Positions 31,612 through 42,205 of a stretch of 43,840 bases of DNA are shown in pieces. The notes below the pieces were generated by a model. That model ran no database searches. It had not been told where the DNA came from and saw only the letters and a list, made by a program, of their open reading frames with translations. This stretch comes from Bacillota bacterium (lineage in GTDB: Bacteria > Bacillota > Sulfobacillia > JAJZIM01): the NCBI GenBank assembly GCA_021810565.1, contig JAJZIM010000020.1, positions 1-43,840 on the forward strand. Reading direction: 5' to 3'. Each line of letters begins with the position of its first letter. Within the stretch, counting starts at the first letter, position 1. The translations under genes and the position numbers were made by a program.

Positions 31612-32094
31612 ATGGCTGTAGTGACCCAGGAAATGAAAGATGCCCTGAGAATCATCGGCAAGGGAGGATCGGTGGTTCATCTTGCCACTTGTAGCCGAGG
31701 GGGCAAGCCCAATATCGTGGCCGAGCGGTTCGTGACGCACTATAAAGATGAATACATTCTTATCGCAGATATGTTTGCGCAAAAGACCAAAGTGAACCTG
31801 AACGAAAATCAAATGGCTTGCATTTCCGTGGCGCATCCCATGAAAAACCGGGCCTGGGTTTTTCGGGGGCCGTGCACCATCCTGACCCTCGGCGAGGCCA
31901 GGAATTACAAATGGCATGGAGTGATGGCCGGGCCGCTGCTGGACGAGTGGGGGTCCTGGGACGAGAAGGAACCGCCGGATGAGGTCCCGCCGGATATCCG
32001 GCCGCCGCGCACCGCGCAACGGGGAGTCATTGTACTCAAAGTGGAGGAAGTGTACAGTTGGCTGCCCGATGAGGCGGGACGTTCGGTCATTTGA
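31612..32094 (+). CDS. PPOX-fold (pyridoxamine 5'-phosphate oxidase-like) protein
   Basis: A 160-residue split-barrel protein of the PPOX/flavin-binding superfamily. It shows VVHLATCSRGGKPNIVAERFV, ILIADMFAQKTKVNLNENQM and ISVAHPMKNRAWVFRGPCTIL, the usual strands and the loop that binds the FMN or F420 phosphate. Members reduce or bind flavins, or act as heme-degrading or F420 enzymes. ATG at 31612 follows GGAAGGTGAGGG. It is the first gene of the island and is followed closely by a second, divergent PPOX gene. Cofactor unknown. Confidence 0.75.
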   Translation: MAVVTQEMKDALRIIGKGGSVVHLATCSRGGKPNIVAERFVTHYKDEYILIADMFAQKTKVNLNENQMACISVAHPMKNRAWVFRGPCTILTLGEARNYKWHGVMAGPLLDEWGSWDEKEPPDEVPPDIRPPRTAQRGVIVLKVEEVYSWLPDEAGRSVI

Positions 32095-32111
32095 AGGAGG
32101 GAGAGACGGGG

Positions 32112-32534
32112 ATGAGCGTGTCTTTGACCCCCAGGATGAAAGGCTGGCTTGAGACACTGGGAGCGCATATCGCCATCGCGGATCGGCAGTGCGTCCCCAC
32201 CGTCGTGGTTGTGACCCAGGCGCAGGTCGCGGGGGCGACCGTGACCTTCGCTCTGACTTCCGCCCAACGGAACCAAACAGCCAAGATCTTGGAGGAGAAT
32301 GATCAGGTGGCGGTGGCGCCCGGGCAATTGGGCAGTGTGCGGGCGCCTTATCAGTTCAAGGGGTCGGGACGCTTGCAAGGTGACCGGCTGGTGGTGGAGG
32401 TGCAGGAGATTTACAGTACGAAGCCCGGGCCGGAATCGGCGGTGCGCCTGGACGTTATGGGGCAGGAGAGAATGCAGCGCTGGGAGGAGGCACGCTGGAC
32501 CGACCTTCCTCCGTCCGGAGGTCCCACCGGCTGA
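32112..32534 (+). CDS. Second PPOX-fold protein
   Basis: A 140-residue protein resembling the PPOX split barrel: KGWLETLGAHIAIADRQCVP.., VTFALTSAQRNQTAKILEEN, QVAVAPGQLGSVRAPYQFKG, LVVEVQEIYSTKPG. It starts 17 bases after the first PPOX gene at ATG 32112. The two may form a heterodimer, since PPOX proteins dimerise with the active site at the interface. This is inference; the sequences differ strongly. Confidence 0.65.
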   Translation: MSVSLTPRMKGWLETLGAHIAIADRQCVPTVVVVTQAQVAGATVTFALTSAQRNQTAKILEENDQVAVAPGQLGSVRAPYQFKGSGRLQGDRLVVEVQEIYSTKPGPESAVRLDVMGQERMQRWEEARWTDLPPSGGPTG

Positions 32535-32874: not shown

Positions 32875-34659
32875 ATGGATAAAGCGGTCGTGGCGGCCTT
32901 TCGAGCGGCCACCGCCCAGCCGGACTATCTCACGACGGATAAGTTTGACGCTATGTTGAGCGGCTTCGGCGTGTTCAATCTGGGGATTTGGGCGGCGGCC
33001 AACGTGCTGGCTAAGGAAATCGAAAAAGGTCGGAAAATCAAGTTGGACGTGGCCAATGAGCAGCACACGGATATGGATTTCCTGGCCGGTCGCTTGACGA
33101 AGGTGCTGAAGGAGTGCGGTGCGGATCCTTCCAACGCCTCACTGGTGGCGGCCACACTCCTGTATTGGGCCGGGGCCAACGTAACGGCCGGCATCCCGGC
33201 CCCCAACCGGAAACTGGGCGCGGTGTGTCGCATGGCTGCCGGAGCGCCTGCGGGACGGGTGGCAAACATGCCGACTGAGAAACTGAACAACAAGATATCT
33301 GGCTTTGCGGCGGTCCAAGCCATGTACCAAGCCATGAGCCGGGAGATCCTTGCCCCTTACGACGGCGCTTCGGTGCCCCTGGGAGTGGGGGGCAGCCCCC
33401 TCACCGGGCACACGCGGTTGGGAGAAGACATCTTGTTTCCCGAGTTGGCACAAAAATTGGTGCGCATCGGAGTGGATGCGATGCTGCAAGCCTACCGATC
33501 CGTGGGCATCAAGCCGTCCCGCTGGATGGCCAGCTTGTTGTCCTGCGCGGCGGCGTTGGAGATATTGCATCCGGATGCCTATGTGGGTGACGAGTGGGGG
33601 CCGTTCCTGCAGACCAGAACGCATTACGTGTGCGGTTTGACGGCGGTGGAAGCGGCCAAGTTGCCGGATAAGATTCATATTCGGGGAACGGGGGAAGAGT
33701 TGGAAACGGCCAAGGTGTTGGGGGAACTGGCCATGATCCTGAAGGACTGCGGGGCGCCCACCGTGGTGGGGATGATCATGTTCAACGAGGCCAATGCGAT
33801 CATCGCGGAAGGGGCGGGCTTGGGAGTCGGACGCAGCGGTGGGCCGCTGCTGCTGCCGCTGACCCACTGGTGCACCTCGGCGGTGCTGGCGCTGTACCTG
33901 ATCAGCAAGGGGATGAGCGAAAGCGGGATCGTCGACACCATAGCCAAGACCATGGATAACTTCTTTCAGCCGGAACATGCGGCGGTAGCTACAAACCTGT
34001 TGGCTCGCCGAGGCAACTTTCTTGAGCGGGGTCCGGTCACCAGGATGGTGATCCAAGCCACCGAACCAACCTTGGTTAAAGCGGTCTATCGGCGGGCGCT
34101 GCGGACGCATGAGGCGTTGCGGCAAGGCCGAACTTTGACCGAGGTAACGCGCAGCTTCGAGGAGGAAAGGATCCAGACCATAGGGGAAGGGGTCGCCCGC
34201 ATCATGAGCCAGTCCTTGGGCAGGAAAATCGAATACGTCAAATTCCGGAATGTCAGAGCAGGAGCCGGCAGGCGCACCCATCGTTTCGCCAAACAGTACT
34301 TCGCTTTCGACGGCTATGTAGACGTGGACGTCAAGGTGGACGGGAAAGTACACCGACATAGAAACATATATGTCACCGTCATTCCCGATGCCATGGTCAA
34401 CAAGGATCAGGCCACCTTGGACATCGTCCAGTGCTATGCCGTTGGCGCGGTGGATTTGCTCAACGCCGGGGCCGTGGCCATGGACGTGGTGGTGCCGGCT
34501 TGCGTGGGGGCGGCCATGGGGATGGAGGTGTCGGAGGCGCTGGAGCAAGCCGCAGCCGGTGCGACCATCAGCATGAGCATTCAGGTGCCGACCATGCAGG
34601 AATCGGCAACCTTGGCCGCGCGGATAGCCAGAGAGATGCCGGACGACTTCCCGCTATAG
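32875..34659 (+). CDS. 594-residue protein of unknown family, candidate enzyme of the lar island
   Basis: I do not recognise this protein. It is soluble-looking, with no signal peptide or membrane anchor, and Gly/Ala-rich loops typical of enzymes: LLYWAGANVTAGIPAPNRK near 100, GVGGSPLTGHTRLGEDILF near 165, GMIMFNEANAIIAEGAGLG near 300, PLLLPLTHWCTSAVLALYL near 325, NLLARRGNFLERGPVTRM near 370, and DVDVKVDGKVHRHRNIYVTV near 484. Eight scattered cysteines, no CxxC cluster motif. LarA landmarks are absent. ATG at 32875 has GGGAGG upstream. It heads the run ferredoxin-DUF2267-cupin-larC2-like-larE-MBL-larB-larC, so it is the best candidate catalytic subunit of that pathway. A faint echo of serine dehydratase/CyuA Gly-rich loops is not enough for an assignment. 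Confidence 0.8.
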   Translation: MDKAVVAAFRAATAQPDYLTTDKFDAMLSGFGVFNLGIWAAANVLAKEIEKGRKIKLDVANEQHTDMDFLAGRLTKVLKECGADPSNASLVAATLLYWAGANVTAGIPAPNRKLGAVCRMAAGAPAGRVANMPTEKLNNKISGFAAVQAMYQAMSREILAPYDGASVPLGVGGSPLTGHTRLGEDILFPELAQKLVRIGVDAMLQAYRSVGIKPSRWMASLLSCAAALEILHPDAYVGDEWGPFLQTRTHYVCGLTAVEAAKLPDKIHIRGTGEELETAKVLGELAMILKDCGAPTVVGMIMFNEANAIIAEGAGLGVGRSGGPLLLPLTHWCTSAVLALYLISKGMSESGIVDTIAKTMDNFFQPEHAAVATNLLARRGNFLERGPVTRMVIQATEPTLVKAVYRRALRTHEALRQGRTLTEVTRSFEEERIQTIGEGVARIMSQSLGRKIEYVKFRNVRAGAGRRTHRFAKQYFAFDGYVDVDVKVDGKVHRHRNIYVTVIPDAMVNKDQATLDIVQCYAVGAVDLLNAGAVAMDVVVPACVGAAMGMEVSEALEQAAAGATISMSIQVPTMQESATLAARIAREMPDDFPL

Positions 34660-34690: not shown

Positions 34691-35005
34691 GTGGCCCTGG
34701 CGTCTGTCGAAAAAATCCAAAGGGTCAGGGGCCTGGGACGTCGCAATAAACGAATGCCTTGGGTGATCCCGGTGAGTTGCGAAGGTTGCGGCAGTTGTGT
34801 GCAGGCCTGTCCACAGCAAGGATTGGTTATGCTGGAAACAAATCGGGAGGGAGTATATGTACCATGGCTCTTGGAACCGGCGCTATGCATCGGATGTGGG
34901 AAATGTGCAGAAGTTTGCGTGATGGGAGCACTGGTCATGACGAGCTATGTGCAAGAAGCCTATGATCGCTTCGCAAATAAGCGCCCAACTCTGCCCTCCG
35001 ATTAA
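34691..35005 (+). CDS. 2x[4Fe-4S] ferredoxin-type protein
   Basis: A 104-residue protein with two classic motifs, CEGCGSCVQACP near residue 30 and CIGCGKCAEVCV near 67, spaced as in bacterial dicluster ferredoxins, plus a 20-residue N-terminal extension. It likely passes electrons to or from the 594-residue protein, which starts its gene run just upstream (31-base gap). GTG at 34691 follows AGGGGATG. The next gene begins 2 bases after its stop. Confidence 0.9.
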   Translation: MALASVEKIQRVRGLGRRNKRMPWVIPVSCEGCGSCVQACPQQGLVMLETNREGVYVPWLLEPALCIGCGKCAEVCVMGALVMTSYVQEAYDRFANKRPTLPSD

Positions 35006-35007
35006 GG

Positions 35008-35436
35008 ATGACAAGGTTGTTCAAACGAGAAGTAACCCTGCGAGAATTTGCTAATTACGCTCGGGCGGTAGGGGGTTACTGCAGTTACCATGATGCGTTG
35101 GCGGCGGTAAATGCGGTATTGGGTGTGCTGCCCCACGTGATGTCCTCCCAAAATGCCGGGGCGGCAAGGGCCTTGCTGCCTTCGGCCTTGCGGCCAAGTT
35201 GGGACTCCTTTTCCGTCAACGCAGGAGAAGATGTCTGGACCCTGGCGGCCCGCGCCGGGGAGTTTTCCTCCCGGGAGGAAATAGGGCGGGCGATGCATGC
35301 CGTCTTCTCCAGTCTCAAGGAAAAATTGCGGGAGGGGGCACCTCGCTGGCAGCGGTTGCTGCCCGCCGAATTGCTGCTGGTATGGGAGCGTAGCCAGACA
35401 GTGGATGCCTCGCAACAAGCCAAGGACTGTCTGTGA
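35008..35436 (+). CDS. DUF2267-like helical protein
   Basis: A 142-residue protein made of two similar helical halves: LREFANYARAVGGYCSYHDA.. to LLPSALRPSWDSF, and VWTLAARAGEFSSREEIGRA.. to LLPAELLLVWE. Each resembles the DUF2267 repeat (family of unknown function, often in stress clusters). Match is by pattern only. ATG at 35008 is 2 bases after the ferredoxin stop, so it is likely cotranscribed and translationally coupled. Confidence 0.6.
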   Translation: MTRLFKREVTLREFANYARAVGGYCSYHDALAAVNAVLGVLPHVMSSQNAGAARALLPSALRPSWDSFSVNAGEDVWTLAARAGEFSSREEIGRAMHAVFSSLKEKLREGAPRWQRLLPAELLLVWERSQTVDASQQAKDCL

Positions 35437-35915: not shown

Positions 35916-36023
35916 GCTGTCTAGACCGATGCCCACCACTTTTCTCCTTGGGCGGGTGGCGTCTGGGTCGCAGGATGCGGCTTTGCAGCCGGTTGGTCCA
36001 CATGTGGAGGGAGGATGCGGTGG

Positions 36024-36584
36024 ATGAGCAAAAAAATGAGATTGCTGTTGGCCCAAGCGGACGATCTGACAGGAGAAGCCGTGGGCCATTTGATACCGCG
36101 GCTCTTGGAAAAAGGTGCAGCTAATGTCCAGGTGATAGCGAGCATAACCAAGAAAAATCGGCCAGGGCAAGTAATCTTGGTGGACATGCGACCGGAGCGG
36201 CTGGCCGCGGTATTAAGCGTTTTACTGGCAGAGACAGGGATATCCGGTTATTATATTCTGGATGGTCATCATTTCTCCCTGGAAGTGTCCTTTGCACCAA
36301 AAATTCTGCGGATAACGTTGGGAGATGCATCTTGGACCAGGGATTTCGTGGTCAAGTATGTTGGCCCCAAGGAACATCCCTTTGCTATCAAAGTAGAGCA
36401 TGATTTCTTGCAAATAGTGCAGAAAGATCTGGAGATGCGAGGTGGGACTTGTTCTCTTAAGCAGTTGCGGGCACTGATCGAGAGCCAATTGTGGCTTGTT
36501 GATACGCCGGAGATCTTATTAAGTTTTCCATCGGCTACACCGTTGCCCGCTGTGGCGGGAAGAGCATCTATCCGTTTGGGCTGA
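36024..36584 (+). CDS. Stand-alone LarC C-terminal-domain paralogue
   Basis: A 186-residue protein matching the C-terminal half of LarC. AQADDLTGEAVGHLIPRLLE aligns with ETNLDDMDPRLYPPLLEQLL of the full LarC encoded at 39412, KKNRPGQVILVDMRPERLAA with KKGRPGVQLTVLALPEKAGE, and LLAETGISG with LLLETTSLGV. In LarC this domain (LarC2) binds CTP and works in nickel insertion into the pincer nucleotide. There is no LarC N-terminal part upstream and the frame is intact, so it is a separate gene, not a broken larC. ATG at 36024 is chosen because GGAGGGAGG lies 9 bases upstream. Lower G+C than its neighbours. Confidence 0.72.
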   Translation: MSKKMRLLLAQADDLTGEAVGHLIPRLLEKGAANVQVIASITKKNRPGQVILVDMRPERLAAVLSVLLAETGISGYYILDGHHFSLEVSFAPKILRITLGDASWTRDFVVKYVGPKEHPFAIKVEHDFLQIVQKDLEMRGGTCSLKQLRALIESQLWLVDTPEILLSFPSATPLPAVAGRASIRLG

Positions 36585-36606: not shown

Positions 36607-37473
36607 ATGGAGCTGCAGTTGTGTCGTAAGAAGAGAAAACTGGAACGCATCTTCAGGTCGATGGGAAGTGTAGTGGTGGCCTTTTCCGGTGGGGTGGACA
36701 GCACTTTGCTGTTGCACGAGGCCCAACGGATGGTAGCGGGGCGGGTGCTGGCGGTGACTGCGGCCTCGCCCAGCTTGCCGGAGCGCGAGTTGGCGGCGGC
36801 GCGGGTTATGGCGGCGGATATGGCAGTAGAACACCTGGTAATCCGGACCGATGAACTGCACGATCCAAGATATGCAAGGAATTTTAACGACCGATGCTAT
36901 TATTGCAAAGCGATGCTTTTTAATAAGTTGCTGTCTATAGCTGAAGCCCGGGAAATGGAGTGGGTGGCTTATGGAGCAAATATTTCAGACATGTTGGAGG
37001 TCCGACCGGGAGCCCAGGCGGCAAGAGAGCTGGGAATACGTAGCCCGTTGGTCGAAGCGGGCTTGACCAAGGAGGAGGTTCGGGAATTGTCTCGCCTAGC
37101 CGGGTTGCCCACCTGGGCCAAACCTGCGGCGGCATGTTTGGCCTCGCGGTTCCCTTACGGTTTTTCCCTGAGCAGGGAGGTGTTCCGGCAAGTAGAACAA
37201 GCGGAGGATCTGCTGCTTGGCTTAGGCTTTAGGCAATTGCGGGTCCGCCACCACGGAGAGTTGGCCCGGCTGGAGGTCGCTCCTGAGGAGATGCCGCAGA
37301 TGTTGCAGACGCAGGTCTGCCGGGAGGTGGTCGCGGGATTGCAGAAATTAGGCTATCGCTATATCACCCTGGATCTGCAAGGTTACCGGACGGGAAGTTT
37401 CAACCAAGCACCGGAGGGCGGAAACATAGCGGCGGTACGCATCCATGCGGCCGCCGAGCAGGTCAAAGCGTGA
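36607..37473 (+). CDS. larE: LarE: ATP-dependent sacrificial sulfur transferase
   Basis: A 288-residue PP-loop enzyme. AFSGGVDSTLLLHEA near residue 24 binds ATP; DRCYYCKAMLFNKL near 97 and YGANISDMLEVRPG near 119 are LarE marks; the sulfur-donating cysteine is C177 in KPAAACLASRFPYG, one position off C176 of the Lactiplantibacillus enzyme. LarE adenylates the pyridinium carboxylate made by LarB and turns it into a thiocarboxylate, giving up its own cysteine sulfur, or using a [4Fe-4S] cluster in three-Cys types. ATG at 36607 follows AAGGAGC. Lies 22 bases after the LarC-like gene. Confidence 0.93.
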   Translation: MELQLCRKKRKLERIFRSMGSVVVAFSGGVDSTLLLHEAQRMVAGRVLAVTAASPSLPERELAAARVMAADMAVEHLVIRTDELHDPRYARNFNDRCYYCKAMLFNKLLSIAEAREMEWVAYGANISDMLEVRPGAQAARELGIRSPLVEAGLTKEEVRELSRLAGLPTWAKPAAACLASRFPYGFSLSREVFRQVEQAEDLLLGLGFRQLRVRHHGELARLEVAPEEMPQMLQTQVCREVVAGLQKLGYRYITLDLQGYRTGSFNQAPEGGNIAAVRIHAAAEQVKA

Positions 37474-37712
37474 CTGCGGAGCAGCCCATTCGGCGGCTCC
37501 CGCGTCAGGGGCGAGGGGGGTCGGCGTGGCGTTGGCTGGCGGAGGAGCGATGGGTGGGGTTGAGCGGACGACTGACCACCCTCCTCAGGGGCCTGCCCCC
37601 AGTCAGACGGGAATCATACCAAAGGAGTGTCGAAAATGACGGGACAGTTCAAGGGCCTGCCGATTTGCGATCAGGTGCAAGTGAGAGTCCTGATGGACAA
37701 CGCCGTAGATGA
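37470..37712 (+). CDS. Possible 80-residue basic protein between larE and the MBL gene
   Basis: A GTG start overlaps the larE stop in a GTGA arrangement typical of coupled genes, and the frame stays open for 80 codons, ending inside the MBL gene. The product is rich in Arg and Trp (RGGSAWRWLAEERWVGLSGR). The first ~55 codons lie outside any other gene. No family recognised and no separate ribosome site; it may be spurious. Confidence 0.3.
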   Translation: MTAEQPIRRLPRQGRGGSAWRWLAEERWVGLSGRLTTLLRGLPPVRRESYQRSVENDGTVQGPADLRSGASESPDGQRRR

Positions 37713-38640
37713 GTTCCTCCCGGCCGCGCCCGGCATAGAGCGTTTCAGCTTTATCCGTCCGGGCTATGAGGAGTTGCCGTTGCCTCTTCGGGCGGAGCAC
37801 GGGTTTTCCTTATTGGTGCGCTGGCAGATTGCAGACCGGGACCACGCGCTGCTTTTCGATTTCGGTCTGTCGGCGGACGGATTGGCGGAGAATCTACGGG
37901 CCTTGGGGGAGGATCTGACGGAGGTGGAAGCTTTGGCCCTAAGCCATGGGCATTGGGACCACTTCGGTGGCCTGGCAATGCTTCCGTTCCACGGCAGGCA
38001 TACGCCTTTTTATCATGGGCCCGAGGCATTTCGGGAACGTCGGATCGGGCCGTCCGGGCGGGAAGTAAACGTGGGTAGAATAAACCAGGAATGGCTGGAG
38101 CGTCTGTCGCTGGTCGCTTGCGAGGTGGCTCAGCCGCAGGAGATCCTCCCAGGAGCTTTGCTGGCGGGACGGATACCGAGGGAAACGGCCTTTGAGGGAG
38201 CAACCGGTCCTTTTCAGGTCAAACATGGGGATAAATGGGGGCCTGACTACTTGCCGGGAGAGATGGCCTTGATCATGCGCACCCAGCGGGGGCTGCTAGT
38301 CATTTCCGGATGCGCCCATGCCGGTATCGTAAACACCGTTCTTTACGCCCGCCGGTTGACGGGAGAGAAGAAGGTGCACGCTGTCTTGGGCGGATTCCAT
38401 TTAGTCACCAGCTCTTCGGAAGTCATTGACCGCACCATCCGATGCATTGCCGATATCGATCCGGATGTGGTGCTCCCCATGCATTGCACCGGCAATGCGG
38501 CAAGCATTGCCATCGCCAAAGACTTGGAGGGAGCCTACCGGGTTTCTGTCGTGGGCACTACTTTGCATTTCCCGCTGTTGGCTGCGGCACCGGCTGATGC
38601 ACAAGCGGAGACGCCACGCGTGCAGTCAGCCGCTCCCTAA
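37636..38640 (+). CDS. Metallo-beta-lactamase-fold hydrolase in the lar cluster
   Basis: A 334-residue MBL-fold protein close to the group annotated as 7,8-dihydropterin-6-yl-methyl-4-(beta-D-ribofuranosyl)aminobenzene-5'-phosphate synthase. Metal motif ALSHGHWDHFGGLAML near residue 106; further ligands SGCAHAGIVNTV near 228 and GGFHLVTSS near 254; VLPMHCTG near 280 is the C-terminal His motif. These enzymes act on phosphoester or cyclic-phosphate pterin or nucleotide substrates. Its position between larE and larB suggests a step on an NPN-type nucleotide. ATG at 37636 has AAGGAG 9 bases upstream. Confidence 0.85.
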   Translation: MTGQFKGLPICDQVQVRVLMDNAVDEFLPAAPGIERFSFIRPGYEELPLPLRAEHGFSLLVRWQIADRDHALLFDFGLSADGLAENLRALGEDLTEVEALALSHGHWDHFGGLAMLPFHGRHTPFYHGPEAFRERRIGPSGREVNVGRINQEWLERLSLVACEVAQPQEILPGALLAGRIPRETAFEGATGPFQVKHGDKWGPDYLPGEMALIMRTQRGLLVISGCAHAGIVNTVLYARRLTGEKKVHAVLGGFHLVTSSSEVIDRTIRCIADIDPDVVLPMHCTGNAASIAIAKDLEGAYRVSVVGTTLHFPLLAAAPADAQAETPRVQSAAP

Positions 38641-38653
38641 AGAGGATGGGGGC

Positions 38654-39415
38654 ATGGATCGCTCTACCCTGGCTGCCTGGCTCGAAGAAGTCCGATTGGG
38701 TTCCCTCACGCCTGCCGCTGCTTTGGAACGCCTGGCCGCGTGGCCCTACGAGGATTTGGGCTTTGCCAAGGTGGACCATCACCGAGTCCTTCGCCAAGGT
38801 TTTCCGGAGGTGATCTACTGTCCTGGCAAGACACCGGACCAAGTGGCGGCGATCGCCACGCGACTGCGTGCTACGGGCGCCACCGTCTTGGTCACCCGAA
38901 TCACACCGGAGGCGGCAGCGCTCTTGGAGAGCGCCTTTCCGGAACTGGCTTACCATCCGGAGGCGCGACTGGCCTTCTTGGGGGCACCGGCGCTGCCGCA
39001 ACACCAAGGTTGCATCGCGGTGGTCTGTGCCGGGACCGCCGACCTGCCGGTGGCGGAAGAAGCTGCCTTGTGTGCCGAGGTGATGGGCAATCCCGTGCGC
39101 CGCATCTATGATGTGGGGGTGGCTGGGTTGCACCGACTGTTGGATCACCGGGAGGTGCTGGCGCGGTCCCGGGTGGTGATCGTCGTAGCGGGGATGGAGG
39201 GGGCGTTGCCCACCGTGGTTGCCGGACTCATCGACCGACCAGTGGTGGCCGTGCCTACGAGTGTCGGCTATGGGGTTTCCCTGGGGGGGATAGCCGCGCT
39301 GCTGACGATGCTCAACAGTTGCGCCGGACGGGTGGGCGTGGTCAATATAGACAACGGCTTCGGGGCGGCGGCCTTGGCGGATGCCATCAACCGCGCGGCG
39401 GAAGCAACGCCATGA
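38654..39415 (+). CDS. larB: LarB: pyridinium-3,5-biscarboxylic acid mononucleotide synthase
   Basis: A 253-residue PurE-like enzyme that carboxylates nicotinic acid adenine dinucleotide and releases AMP, the first step of NPN cofactor synthesis. Seen: PEVIYCPGKTPDQVAAIA near 52, GCIAVVCAGTADLPVAEEA near 119, YDVGVAGLHRLLDH near 149, and the catalytic cysteine C223 in MLNSCAGRVGVVNIDNGFGA (C221 in Lactiplantibacillus). ATG at 38654 follows GAGGATGGGGG. Its stop overlaps the larC start (ATGA). Confidence 0.93.
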   Translation: MDRSTLAAWLEEVRLGSLTPAAALERLAAWPYEDLGFAKVDHHRVLRQGFPEVIYCPGKTPDQVAAIATRLRATGATVLVTRITPEAAALLESAFPELAYHPEARLAFLGAPALPQHQGCIAVVCAGTADLPVAEEAALCAEVMGNPVRRIYDVGVAGLHRLLDHREVLARSRVVIVVAGMEGALPTVVAGLIDRPVVAVPTSVGYGVSLGGIAALLTMLNSCAGRVGVVNIDNGFGAAALADAINRAAEATP

Positions 39416-40602
39416 GACATCTGTACCTGAACTGTTTTGACGGCATCAGCGGTGACATGGCCTTGGCAGCGCTGCTGGATCTGGGTTTGCCGGAAGCGGT
39501 GCTGCGAGATGTTCTCCGGGCCCTGGGGTTGGAGCACCAGGTGCGCTTGGCGGTGCGGGCGACCACCCAGCACTCCATAGGGGCCACGGCGTTGGAAGTC
39601 GTATGCGCCGCTGCGCAGCCCTTGCGGCGGCTGAGTGAGATCCTTTCTTTGTTGGGAGAAGCCAGGTTGCCGGACGGCGTACGGGAACGATCCGCCGCCA
39701 CCTTTCACCTGCTGGTTGAGGCCGAAGGTAGGGTCCACGGTGTCTCGCCCGCACAGGTCAACCTTCATGAGTTGGGGGCTTTGGACACCATCGTGGACGT
39801 GGTAGGCTTCGCGGCCGGCTTGGACCATCTGAAGATCCAGGCGGTTTCGGCATCCCCTGTGCCCTGGTTCACCGGTCGCATCGAGACAGAACATGGGTTC
39901 CTCTCCCTGCCGGCGCCTGCGGTACTGGAATTGCTGCGAGGGATTCCGATCGTGCCTGGGGAGCGGGCGGAGGAAATAGTCACCCCGACGGGAGCCGCTT
40001 TGCTGGTCGTGCACGCAGGGTCCTTCGGTCCTCCTCCCGCTTTTAGGTTGAAGTCGGTGGGTTACGGTGCCGGAAGGAGGGCAGGATCGCTCCTGCGGGC
40101 CGTGCTGGGGGAGGTGGAGGTGGCTGCGGAGGGGAGTTGGGAAGAGATCGCTGTGCTGGAAACCAATCTGGACGACATGGATCCGCGCTTGTACCCGCCC
40201 CTGTTGGAGCAGTTGTTGGGCGCAGGTGCGCTGGACGCCTTTGCGACCACAGTACAGATGAAGAAAGGACGCCCCGGCGTGCAACTTACGGTGCTGGCCT
40301 TGCCTGAAAAGGCGGGAGAGTTATGCGACCTGCTGCTGCTGGAAACCACCAGTCTGGGCGTGCGGGTGCAGCAACTGCGGCGGCGCGTCGCGGCGCGGGA
40401 GATCCGCCGTGTGGACACTGCCTATGGTTCGGTGCGGGTCAAGCTGGCCATGCTGGCGGGTCGTGTGGTGGGGGCCAATCCCGAATTGGAGGATTGTCGC
40501 AGTTTGGCCCAGCAGCGGGGGGTTCCCTTGAAAGTGGTGATGGCCAGCGCCCAGGCGGCTGCCCAGGCGGCATACCCGGTGTGCAGGGCCGGGGGAGGCT
40601 AG
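39412..40602 (+). CDS. larC: LarC: nickel insertion protein (full length)
   Basis: A 396-residue single-frame LarC, in contrast to the Lactiplantibacillus gene that needs a ribosomal frameshift. N-terminal LYLNCFDGISGDMALAALLD, HLHELG-type motif seen as QVNLHELGALDTIVDVVG near 119, EIVTPTGAALL near 185, and the C-terminal domain ETNLDDMDPRLYPPLLEQLL near 247 with KKGRPGVQLTVLA. LarC uses CTP to cyclometalate the pyridinium dithiocarboxylate nucleotide with nickel. The His-rich loop of some LarC proteins is missing. The start overlaps larB. Confidence 0.93.
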   Translation: MRHLYLNCFDGISGDMALAALLDLGLPEAVLRDVLRALGLEHQVRLAVRATTQHSIGATALEVVCAAAQPLRRLSEILSLLGEARLPDGVRERSAATFHLLVEAEGRVHGVSPAQVNLHELGALDTIVDVVGFAAGLDHLKIQAVSASPVPWFTGRIETEHGFLSLPAPAVLELLRGIPIVPGERAEEIVTPTGAALLVVHAGSFGPPPAFRLKSVGYGAGRRAGSLLRAVLGEVEVAAEGSWEEIAVLETNLDDMDPRLYPPLLEQLLGAGALDAFATTVQMKKGRPGVQLTVLALPEKAGELCDLLLLETTSLGVRVQQLRRRVAAREIRRVDTAYGSVRVKLAMLAGRVVGANPELEDCRSLAQQRGVPLKVVMASAQAAAQAAYPVCRAGGG

Positions 40603-40819: not shown

Positions 40820-42205
40820 TTGATCCAGCGGGAATTCTTCCTGGGCCAACTGCTGCACCAGTTGTTCAACTGGGAGATGCAAGGCGATCGGCAACCGGAA
40901 ACCTCCCGACTGCTGATGGTTGCGGAAGGGTTGGGGCGGTGGGCTTATCAGGAGATGGCCAACAGCGGCCAGGCGGCGGCATGTCCGGACATGGCAGCTT
41001 ACGGCGCGCTGCTGGCGGACTTGAAGAATGCCCTGGGCGGAAGCTGCGCGGTGCTGAAGGGAGGCGATAATTGGGCAGTCCTGGCGCTGAAGCGTTGCCC
41101 CTTTCAAGAGGTCATTCGCCAGTCACCATGTATGTGCATGGTAACGGCAGGAGTCTTCGGTGTTTTGACTCGCTGCCGCTTCGGATACGGGCGCGTGGTG
41201 TTGGAGCGCACCATTGCCACGGGGGCTCCGTGGTGCCGCATAGCCGTCTACGCCACTCCGGGCGTGGTCGAGGTGGGGGACGCGGTCAGCCTGGAATTTC
41301 CGGCGTCGGCAGCGGCAAGACTGCACGAGCCCGCCGAAGTGGTTGGCCGGGGTCGGCCAAGTTGGCTGTCGGGGGGGGGCAGGCAGTTTGCGCTACGCTG
41401 CCTGACCGAGTTGCAAGGGATCCGGGAACGCCTGGAAGACAACTTGGTGCGAGGCCTCATCAACGATTCCTTCACGCTGGAGGACAGTGAGTTTTTGGGC
41501 CAGCAACTGGTTAACTTAGGACGGTGCCTTGCGGAGACATACCGCGTGCTGCTGGTGACCCGGAAGCCAGAGGGGTCTTTGGAGGTACCCGGGCGGCGGA
41601 GTTGGCGCAAGGTCTTGCGGCGGCGAATGCGGCAAAGTGCTCCGGACAGTTTAGCGGGCCGGGATGACCAGGATGGAATGGTGGTGCTGGTTCCGGGGAA
41701 GGAGTATGAGGTGGCGGAACTGGTGCGGCTTTGTCAGGAGGACCTGCAGCGCTGCGGCCACGAGGGGCTGACCATGTCGGTGGGCGGTCCCAGCCAGAGT
41801 TTGCCAAACATCCGTCGCTCCTATCTGCAGGCTGCGATAGCCATGCGTGTTTTGGAACGCCTGGGGCCGGCACATAAGGATATTTTTTTCGAGCATCTTG
41901 GAATATACAGCTTATTCTACTACCTGGAGGAGCTACCCTTGGCTCGGGAAGCAGCTATGCAAATGCTGCGACCGCTGATAGAATACGATGATCGGCGGCA
42001 CACCTACCTATTGAGTACCTTGGAGACTTATTTCGCTTGCGAATGTAAGTTTAAGAAAACTGCAGATGCGCTATTTATCCATCCGACGACACTGAAGTAT
42101 CGATTACAACGGGCACAGCAGCTGGGAGGTTTCAATCTGGCAAATATGGAAGACCGACTGTCGGTGCTTATGAGCCTACGCTTTATCAAGCTAAATGTGC
42201 GTTAG
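40820..42205 (+). CDS. PucR/CdaR-type transcriptional regulator
   Basis: A 461-residue protein with a C-terminal PucR helix-turn-helix: LSTLETYFACECKFKKTADA then LFIHPTTLKYRLQRAQQLGG near 405-440. The upstream region shows a GGDEF-like/PucR middle domain (MVVLVPGKEYEVAELVRLCQ). The N-terminal ~250 residues are a sensor region I cannot name. Such proteins activate adjacent catabolic genes when their ligand is present, so it is the likely regulator of the island. TTG start at 40820. No known effector. The last gene inside the bracketing inverted repeat. Confidence 0.82.
   Translation: MIQREFFLGQLLHQLFNWEMQGDRQPETSRLLMVAEGLGRWAYQEMANSGQAAACPDMAAYGALLADLKNALGGSCAVLKGGDNWAVLALKRCPFQEVIRQSPCMCMVTAGVFGVLTRCRFGYGRVVLERTIATGAPWCRIAVYATPGVVEVGDAVSLEFPASAAARLHEPAEVVGRGRPSWLSGGGRQFALRCLTELQGIRERLEDNLVRGLINDSFTLEDSEFLGQQLVNLGRCLAETYRVLLVTRKPEGSLEVPGRRSWRKVLRRRMRQSAPDSLAGRDDQDGMVVLVPGKEYEVAELVRLCQEDLQRCGHEGLTMSVGGPSQSLPNIRRSYLQAAIAMRVLERLGPAHKDIFFEHLGIYSLFYYLEELPLAREAAMQMLRPLIEYDDRRHTYLLSTLETYFACECKFKKTADALFIHPTTLKYRLQRAQQLGGFNLANMEDRLSVLMSLRFIKLNVR

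Follow-up and report, generated by a model that had tools for sequence, protein, structure and literature searches.

The window (the whole stretch of DNA that was analysed, 43,840 nt in length) carries a gene island in which a 594 aa protein, here called protein X, is followed in order by a ferredoxin, a DUF2267 protein, a cupin, LarC2s, LarE, a metallo-beta-lactamase-fold protein, LarB and LarC. All features of the window given below with coordinates are on the + strand. Protein X (32875..34659) is intact and conserved, has a mainly helical structural model, and is a candidate non-LarA apo-enzyme for the nickel-pincer cofactor (NPN). An earlier note on this DNA, made from the sequence alone, had described the gene as long, intact and well started and as the largest of the island, and this is borne out: translation begins at an ATG, a Shine-Dalgarno-like stretch (GGGAGGT) lies immediately 5′ of it, and the frame continues for 594 aa uninterrupted by stops. 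The same note had X lead the ferredoxin run; X is not the first gene of the conserved run, as its closest relatives have two small genes just upstream, one for a PNPOx-fold protein and one other.

In the window, the first of these upstream genes (31612..32094) specifies a PNPOx-fold, putatively flavin-binding protein (PF01243, 37.9 bits against a cut-off of 28.1), which is found upstream of X in clade A of the X tree (see below). Between it and X lies the gene for a small protein (32091..32534) of no Pfam or NCBIfam family, found at the same place in clade A with copies that are 31–55% identical. Directly downstream of X is a two-cluster 4Fe-4S ferredoxin (34691..35005; Fer4_7). Bacillota of clade A have retained it next to X, and copies 53–60% identical directly follow X at five loci (L010, L012, L013, L014 and L047). 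The DUF2267 small protein (35008..35436; PF10025, 31.0 bits against 29.8) is also kept in clade A and its gene is present at 13 related loci.

The lar genes begin with a stand-alone LarC2-like protein, LarC2s (36015..36584; PF01969, 54.3 bits against a cut-off of 22.1), and LarE, the sulfur transferase of NPN synthesis (36607..37473; TIGR00268, 318 bits against 150). Inside the lar run is a gene for a metallo-beta-lactamase-fold protein (37627..38640; PF00753) that is not generally kept with X, being seen at one other X locus (L017). It is followed by LarB, the NaAD carboxylase/hydrolase of NPN synthesis (38654..39415; NF033503, 293 bits against 175; start set by eye from the L010 homologue), and by LarC (39412..40602), a nickel insertion protein with both C1 and C2 parts (TIGR00299, 176 bits against 90; NF052512, 139 against 50). 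A possible PucR/CdaR-type regulator (40820..42205), judged from its position and its sequence as read, lies beside the island. No Rfam RNA was found within the island.

Two further observations concern the genome to which the window belongs (G000). Contig C97 (5573-6343) has a further strong match to LarE (311 bits) within a 586-residue open frame, possibly a fusion. The genome also carries two full and two partial genes for CO dehydrogenase catalytic subunits (contigs C50, C74, C115 and C26), and the two full copies would fit an anaerobe that metabolises CO or C1 compounds.

Conservation and predicted structure of protein X

Searches of X against Pfam and NCBIfam gave zero matches even at E 1, and nothing significant was found among PDB sequences with either the single sequence or the family profile, in agreement with the earlier view that X belongs to no known family. 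Two PDB matches were set aside, one to a designed repeat protein that is compositional, and the other a weak match to 4h7l (E 0.0095, residues 439–519). When 29 homologues of X were scanned against Pfam up to E 10, only isolated matches appeared, each in at most two members. Comparison of one half of X with the other by hhalign detected no internal repeat.

Protein X is encoded at 50 further loci, at 36–73% identity, in Bacillota, Nitrospirota, Actinobacteria, Alphaproteobacteria and others. An alignment-based scan of about 85,000 species genomes gave 45 X loci, and a scan with the single X sequence as query gave none. Homologues on five rhizobial plasmids, located by tblastn, are 38–39% identical to X and cover 92–93% of its length. 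In the phylum of the window, a family profile search found X in 2 of 398 genomes. The hosts include Desulfofundulus, Desulfovirgula and other Clostridia; Lachnospiraceae, Eubacterium callanderi and Anaerosphaera; Mesorhizobium, Sinorhizobium, Rhizobium and Paracoccus thiocyanatus; and Nitrospirota, one actinobacterial MAG and one Balneolaceae MAG. A search of phages for X returned no match. The X tree shows two clades: clade A comprises Bacillota (including the window), Nitrospirota and Actinobacteria, and clade B comprises Alphaproteobacteria with a burkholderial MAG, together with Lachnospiraceae, Eubacteriaceae and Anaerosphaera.

The alignment of 29 homologues has about 70 invariant columns. 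Four His (H179, H232, H268 and H331) and four Lys (K113, K136, K140 and K290) are invariant, as are, among others, E184, D185, E229, D234, D291, E305, E312, R466, R467, D479 and D483. The earlier note had looked to such an alignment for invariant His, Lys and Cys, and the first two were recovered while no invariant Cys was; X thus lacks the conserved Cys expected of iron-sulfur enzymes, which fits the earlier remark that it has no Fe-S motif. Three segments had been singled out there as conserved in appearance, and this stands for particular residues: G178, H179, G183, E184 and D185 in the GHTRLGED stretch, E305 and E312 around MFNEANAIIAEGAG, and H331 in THWC, the Cys of which varies.

The Pfam Lar_N domain (PF09861) is present neither in X nor in the 29 homologues. 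The claim that X is unrelated to LarA also withstood a profile comparison by hhalign, in which X against 17 LarA sequences gave a probability of 0.2% and an E of 0.38. An AlphaFold model of X, built with 29 sequences, has high confidence values (pLDDT 91.3, pTM 0.91); helices make up most of it, and residues 452–495 form a small beta part. With the full model, Foldseek returned nothing from the PDB below E 0.46 and VIA gave a best Z of 4.4. Residues 1–362, which contain all four invariant His and all four invariant Lys, were modelled alone at a pLDDT of 83; here Foldseek returned nothing from the PDB below E 1.5, and the top row of VIA (Z 6.1) was a designed helical repeat, at a level common for helical models. 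Phenylalanine ammonia lyase, the beta subunit of ethyl-CoM reductase, and iminodisuccinate epimerase/2-methylcitrate dehydratase came up in these fold searches at noise level and are not proposed as relatives. No viral structures similar to the model were found. LarA does not appear in the fold-match lists, though absence from such lists excludes nothing. The confident match to a characterised family, which the earlier note had named as what would count against its reading, did not emerge from the PDB sequence or fold searches. The modelled fold of X thus appears to have no PDB counterpart in these searches, which is not in itself proof of a new fold, and it offers no clue to function.

Genes kept with protein X

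LarC2s is present at 46 of the 51 X loci, and at the other five (L019, L023, L046, L048 and L054) the sequence runs out at X or no further than about 420 bp downstream. Wherever both flanks of X measure 600 bp or more, LarC2s is at most about 1 kb away (42/42 loci), the spacing being within 700 bp at 39 of them and 783, 915 and 973 bp at L012, L047 and L013, respectively. It follows X directly in rhizobia, precedes it in several Lachnospiraceae and Eubacteriaceae and, in clade A, comes after the ferredoxin or DUF2267 gene. This change of side between lineages indicates that the adjacency has been kept and is not one inherited arrangement. LarC2s proteins form their own clade, separate from the C2 domains of LarC and with a topology that broadly follows the X tree, and share an invariant KKxRP motif. 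Among 119 genomes, a LarC2s profile picks out only the window gene at 201 bits, ordinary LarC of the 118 other genomes reaching at most 62 bits. Against the NCBIfam LarC2 equivalog (NF052512), LarC2s scores 49.2 bits, just under the cut-off of 50.

Besides LarC2s, X loci usually carry larB, larC and larE, in orders that differ between lineages; the rhizobial run, for example, reads X, LarC2s, LarC, LarE, LarB and a NixA/HoxN nickel permease. The genome of the window has larB, larC and larE above their cut-offs, as expected of a host that makes NPN. LarB is above cut-off in 18 of the 20 other X genomes; for LarE, counting the genome of the window as well, the figure is 18 of 21. The exceptions are two Anaerosphaera for both proteins, and G446 for LarE. 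LarA, sought as Lar_N, was not found in the genome of the window; it is missing from 11 of the 20 other X genomes and present in nine. The cofactor must then have another user in the genomes lacking LarA. Across the phylum, LarB is above cut-off in 217 of 398 genomes, and several genomes with strong LarB matches (e.g., G066 and G069) have neither LarA nor X, so X explains no more than a small share of the genomes without LarA.

Some lineages depart from the usual complement. The two Anaerosphaera genomes (G450 and G451, with X loci L025 and L027) have X, LarC2s and LarC1 and are without LarB and LarE genome-wide, so that an imported precursor would be required; their X runs also include an ECF transporter S-component and DUF1893, and the S-component may serve in import or salvage of an NPN precursor. 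In a group formed by R. tropici, R. lusitanum, R. leucaenae and R. freirei, larE is divided by an in-frame stop into two adjacent ORFs of the same frame (L002:15568-16374, and likewise L006, L037, L038, L039 and L045) while X is intact; larE of a close strain (L005) is undivided. These Rhizobium strains may therefore make no NPN via this gene. One X cluster of Desulfofundulus (L012:7240-14588) contains two LarB and two LarC-type genes, and a sensor kinase/AraC-type regulator pair is found between the duplicated lar genes.

The metabolic genes around X vary. In four Nitrospirota loci (L017, L018, L020 and L021), the X-lar genes are followed by a CooS-type CO dehydrogenase catalytic subunit and a NuoF-like protein; the L017 enzyme scores 500.7 bits with TIGR01702 (cut-off 478), and the proteins of the other three cluster with it. 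Loci of Anaerosphaera and UBA6113 carry FTHFS, FolD and formiminotransferase/cyclodeaminase genes. Rhizobial loci carry PatB, RidA and an amino-acid ABC transporter, along with amine oxidase, alcohol dehydrogenase and cupin genes, and a Hyphomicrobiaceae locus has an HpcH-type aldolase and an amine oxidase. Such variety is expected if X enzymes take different substrates, and from this context the substrate probably differs between subfamilies. Mimosine catabolism was considered as the rhizobial pathway and set aside: upstream there are PatB, LysR and amino-acid ABC genes of the same general sort as midABCD/midR, a weak lead, but the PLP enzyme belongs with the C-S lyases of the PatB type, no pyd genes were seen, and the neighbours elsewhere differ.

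Proposed role of protein X and comparison with LarA and LarC

To our knowledge, the organometallic cofactor NPN is known only from racemases and epimerases of the LarA type. In LarA, the cofactor can be tethered by a Lys, a His completes the coordination of nickel, and C4 of the pyridinium accepts a hydride from the substrate and then gives it back. NPN is made from NaAD by LarB, LarE and LarC (PMC11796402). About 15% of genomes carry larB, larC and larE without larA, from which the existence of NPN-binding proteins other than LarA was inferred in 2024 (PMC11796402). A literature search that mostly covered journals outside subscription returned no named non-LarA NPN protein, though one may have been published elsewhere.

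Protein X is a strong candidate for this predicted enzyme. The reading that we consider probable takes X for an apo-enzyme that represents a second class of NPN enzymes without relation to LarA; it would be loaded by LarC2s, with hydride transfer as its probable chemistry; both cofactor binding and reaction are proposed here from gene context and by analogy. The stronger evidence for this comes from gene context, with NPN genes beside X in several phyla. In outline, LarB, LarE and LarC would make NPN, and LarC2s would probably finish the cofactor or hand it over to X. By analogy with LarA, X would bind NPN, plausibly via an invariant Lys (K113, K136, K140 or K290) together with an invariant His (H179, H232, H268 or H331); the two sets of four residues are compatible with such binding. 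X would then take a hydride from an organic substrate and return it, as LarA does. In clade A, the PNPOx-type protein and the ferredoxin may carry electrons away, making the enzyme a net oxidoreductase, and in clade B, where these two are lacking, isomerisation would be more likely. A more specific proposal, tentative and in our view doubtful, is that X is the first non-LarA NPN enzyme, of a fold absent from the PDB, and that the clade with ferredoxin and PNPOx genes employs the pincer in net oxidation or reduction and not racemisation, the hydride passing to NPN, to flavin and to ferredoxin in an anaerobic, C1- or CO-linked metabolism.

Protein X might instead serve the maturation or carriage of NPN, as a nickel donor, an NPN chaperone or part of a LarC2s-X insertion complex, with the true user encoded elsewhere. 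Its closest and only constant neighbour is indeed LarC2-like, in several genomes (L035, L055 and L056) the conserved unit consists of X and LarC2s only, and LarA co-occurs in the nine X genomes noted above. However, most LarB-bearing genomes are without X, which is thus not generally needed for NPN synthesis, and this dispensability speaks more for a cofactor user than for a general maturation factor. There is also no LarA to be served in the genome of the window and 11 others, and a protein of nearly 600 residues with many invariant polar positions looks catalytic. We regard a maturation role as unlikely. Slightly less probable is a related proposal, that the cofactor of X is another nickel compound stemming from the NPN pathway, namely a pincer modified by LarC2s (e.g., cytidinylylated or differently metallated). 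In clade A and rhizobia, the divergent paralogue LarC2s stands beside a complete LarC and would be redundant for plain NPN, and its KKxRP motif has been retained; on the other side, the LarC2s of Lachnospiraceae and Anaerosphaera is found beside a short LarC1 (240–255 aa) and may simply be the other half of a LarC split in two.

The linkage of X to lar genes could also reflect shared regulation by nickel or anaerobiosis, or the spread of one mobile island, in which case X would use no pincer cofactor at all. The genes are patchy in distribution and plasmid-borne in rhizobia, and nickel enzymes such as CooS are nearby in Nitrospirota. This appears highly improbable, as the linkage holds across at least four phyla despite differing gene orders and flanking genes, and is tightest with LarC2s, for which no other role is known.

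If X does act as a user of NPN, it would be a second protein scaffold for nickel-pincer catalysis, possibly with a new type of reaction. X and LarC2s together provide a concrete and expressible candidate for the missing NPN user, and a direct test is feasible with a Duet system already described for NPN enzymes in E. coli, in which a candidate gene takes the place of larA (PMC11796402). Organisms in culture that carry X include Eubacterium callanderi, Desulfofundulus thermobenzoicus, rhizobia and Anaerosphaera.

Compared with known systems, the island is a lar cluster that has, in place of LarA, the unrelated protein X with a LarC2 paralogue of its own, X possibly representing a new enzyme class. 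Like LarA, X is encoded with larB, larC and larE, its conserved His and Lys could hold and assist a nickel-pincer cofactor, and hydride-transfer chemistry would be expected of it by analogy. Unlike LarA, it is without a Lar_N domain and without profile similarity to that family, is longer (about 590 aa against about 430 aa), is predicted to be mainly helical, and has a dedicated partner in LarC2s. LarC2s is itself homologous to LarC2 (PDB 6BWO) by profile (E 2e-8), with PF01969 above cut-off, but differs from LarC and its C2 domain in standing alone, in forming its own clade and in occurring, among the sampled genomes, only with X. The best solved relative of LarC2s is the uncharacterised MK0293 of Methanopyrus kandleri (PDB 3C19; E 2e-14), which matches the LarC2s profile better than the LarC2 of L. 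plantarum does and is likewise a short stand-alone protein, although it comes from a methanogen.
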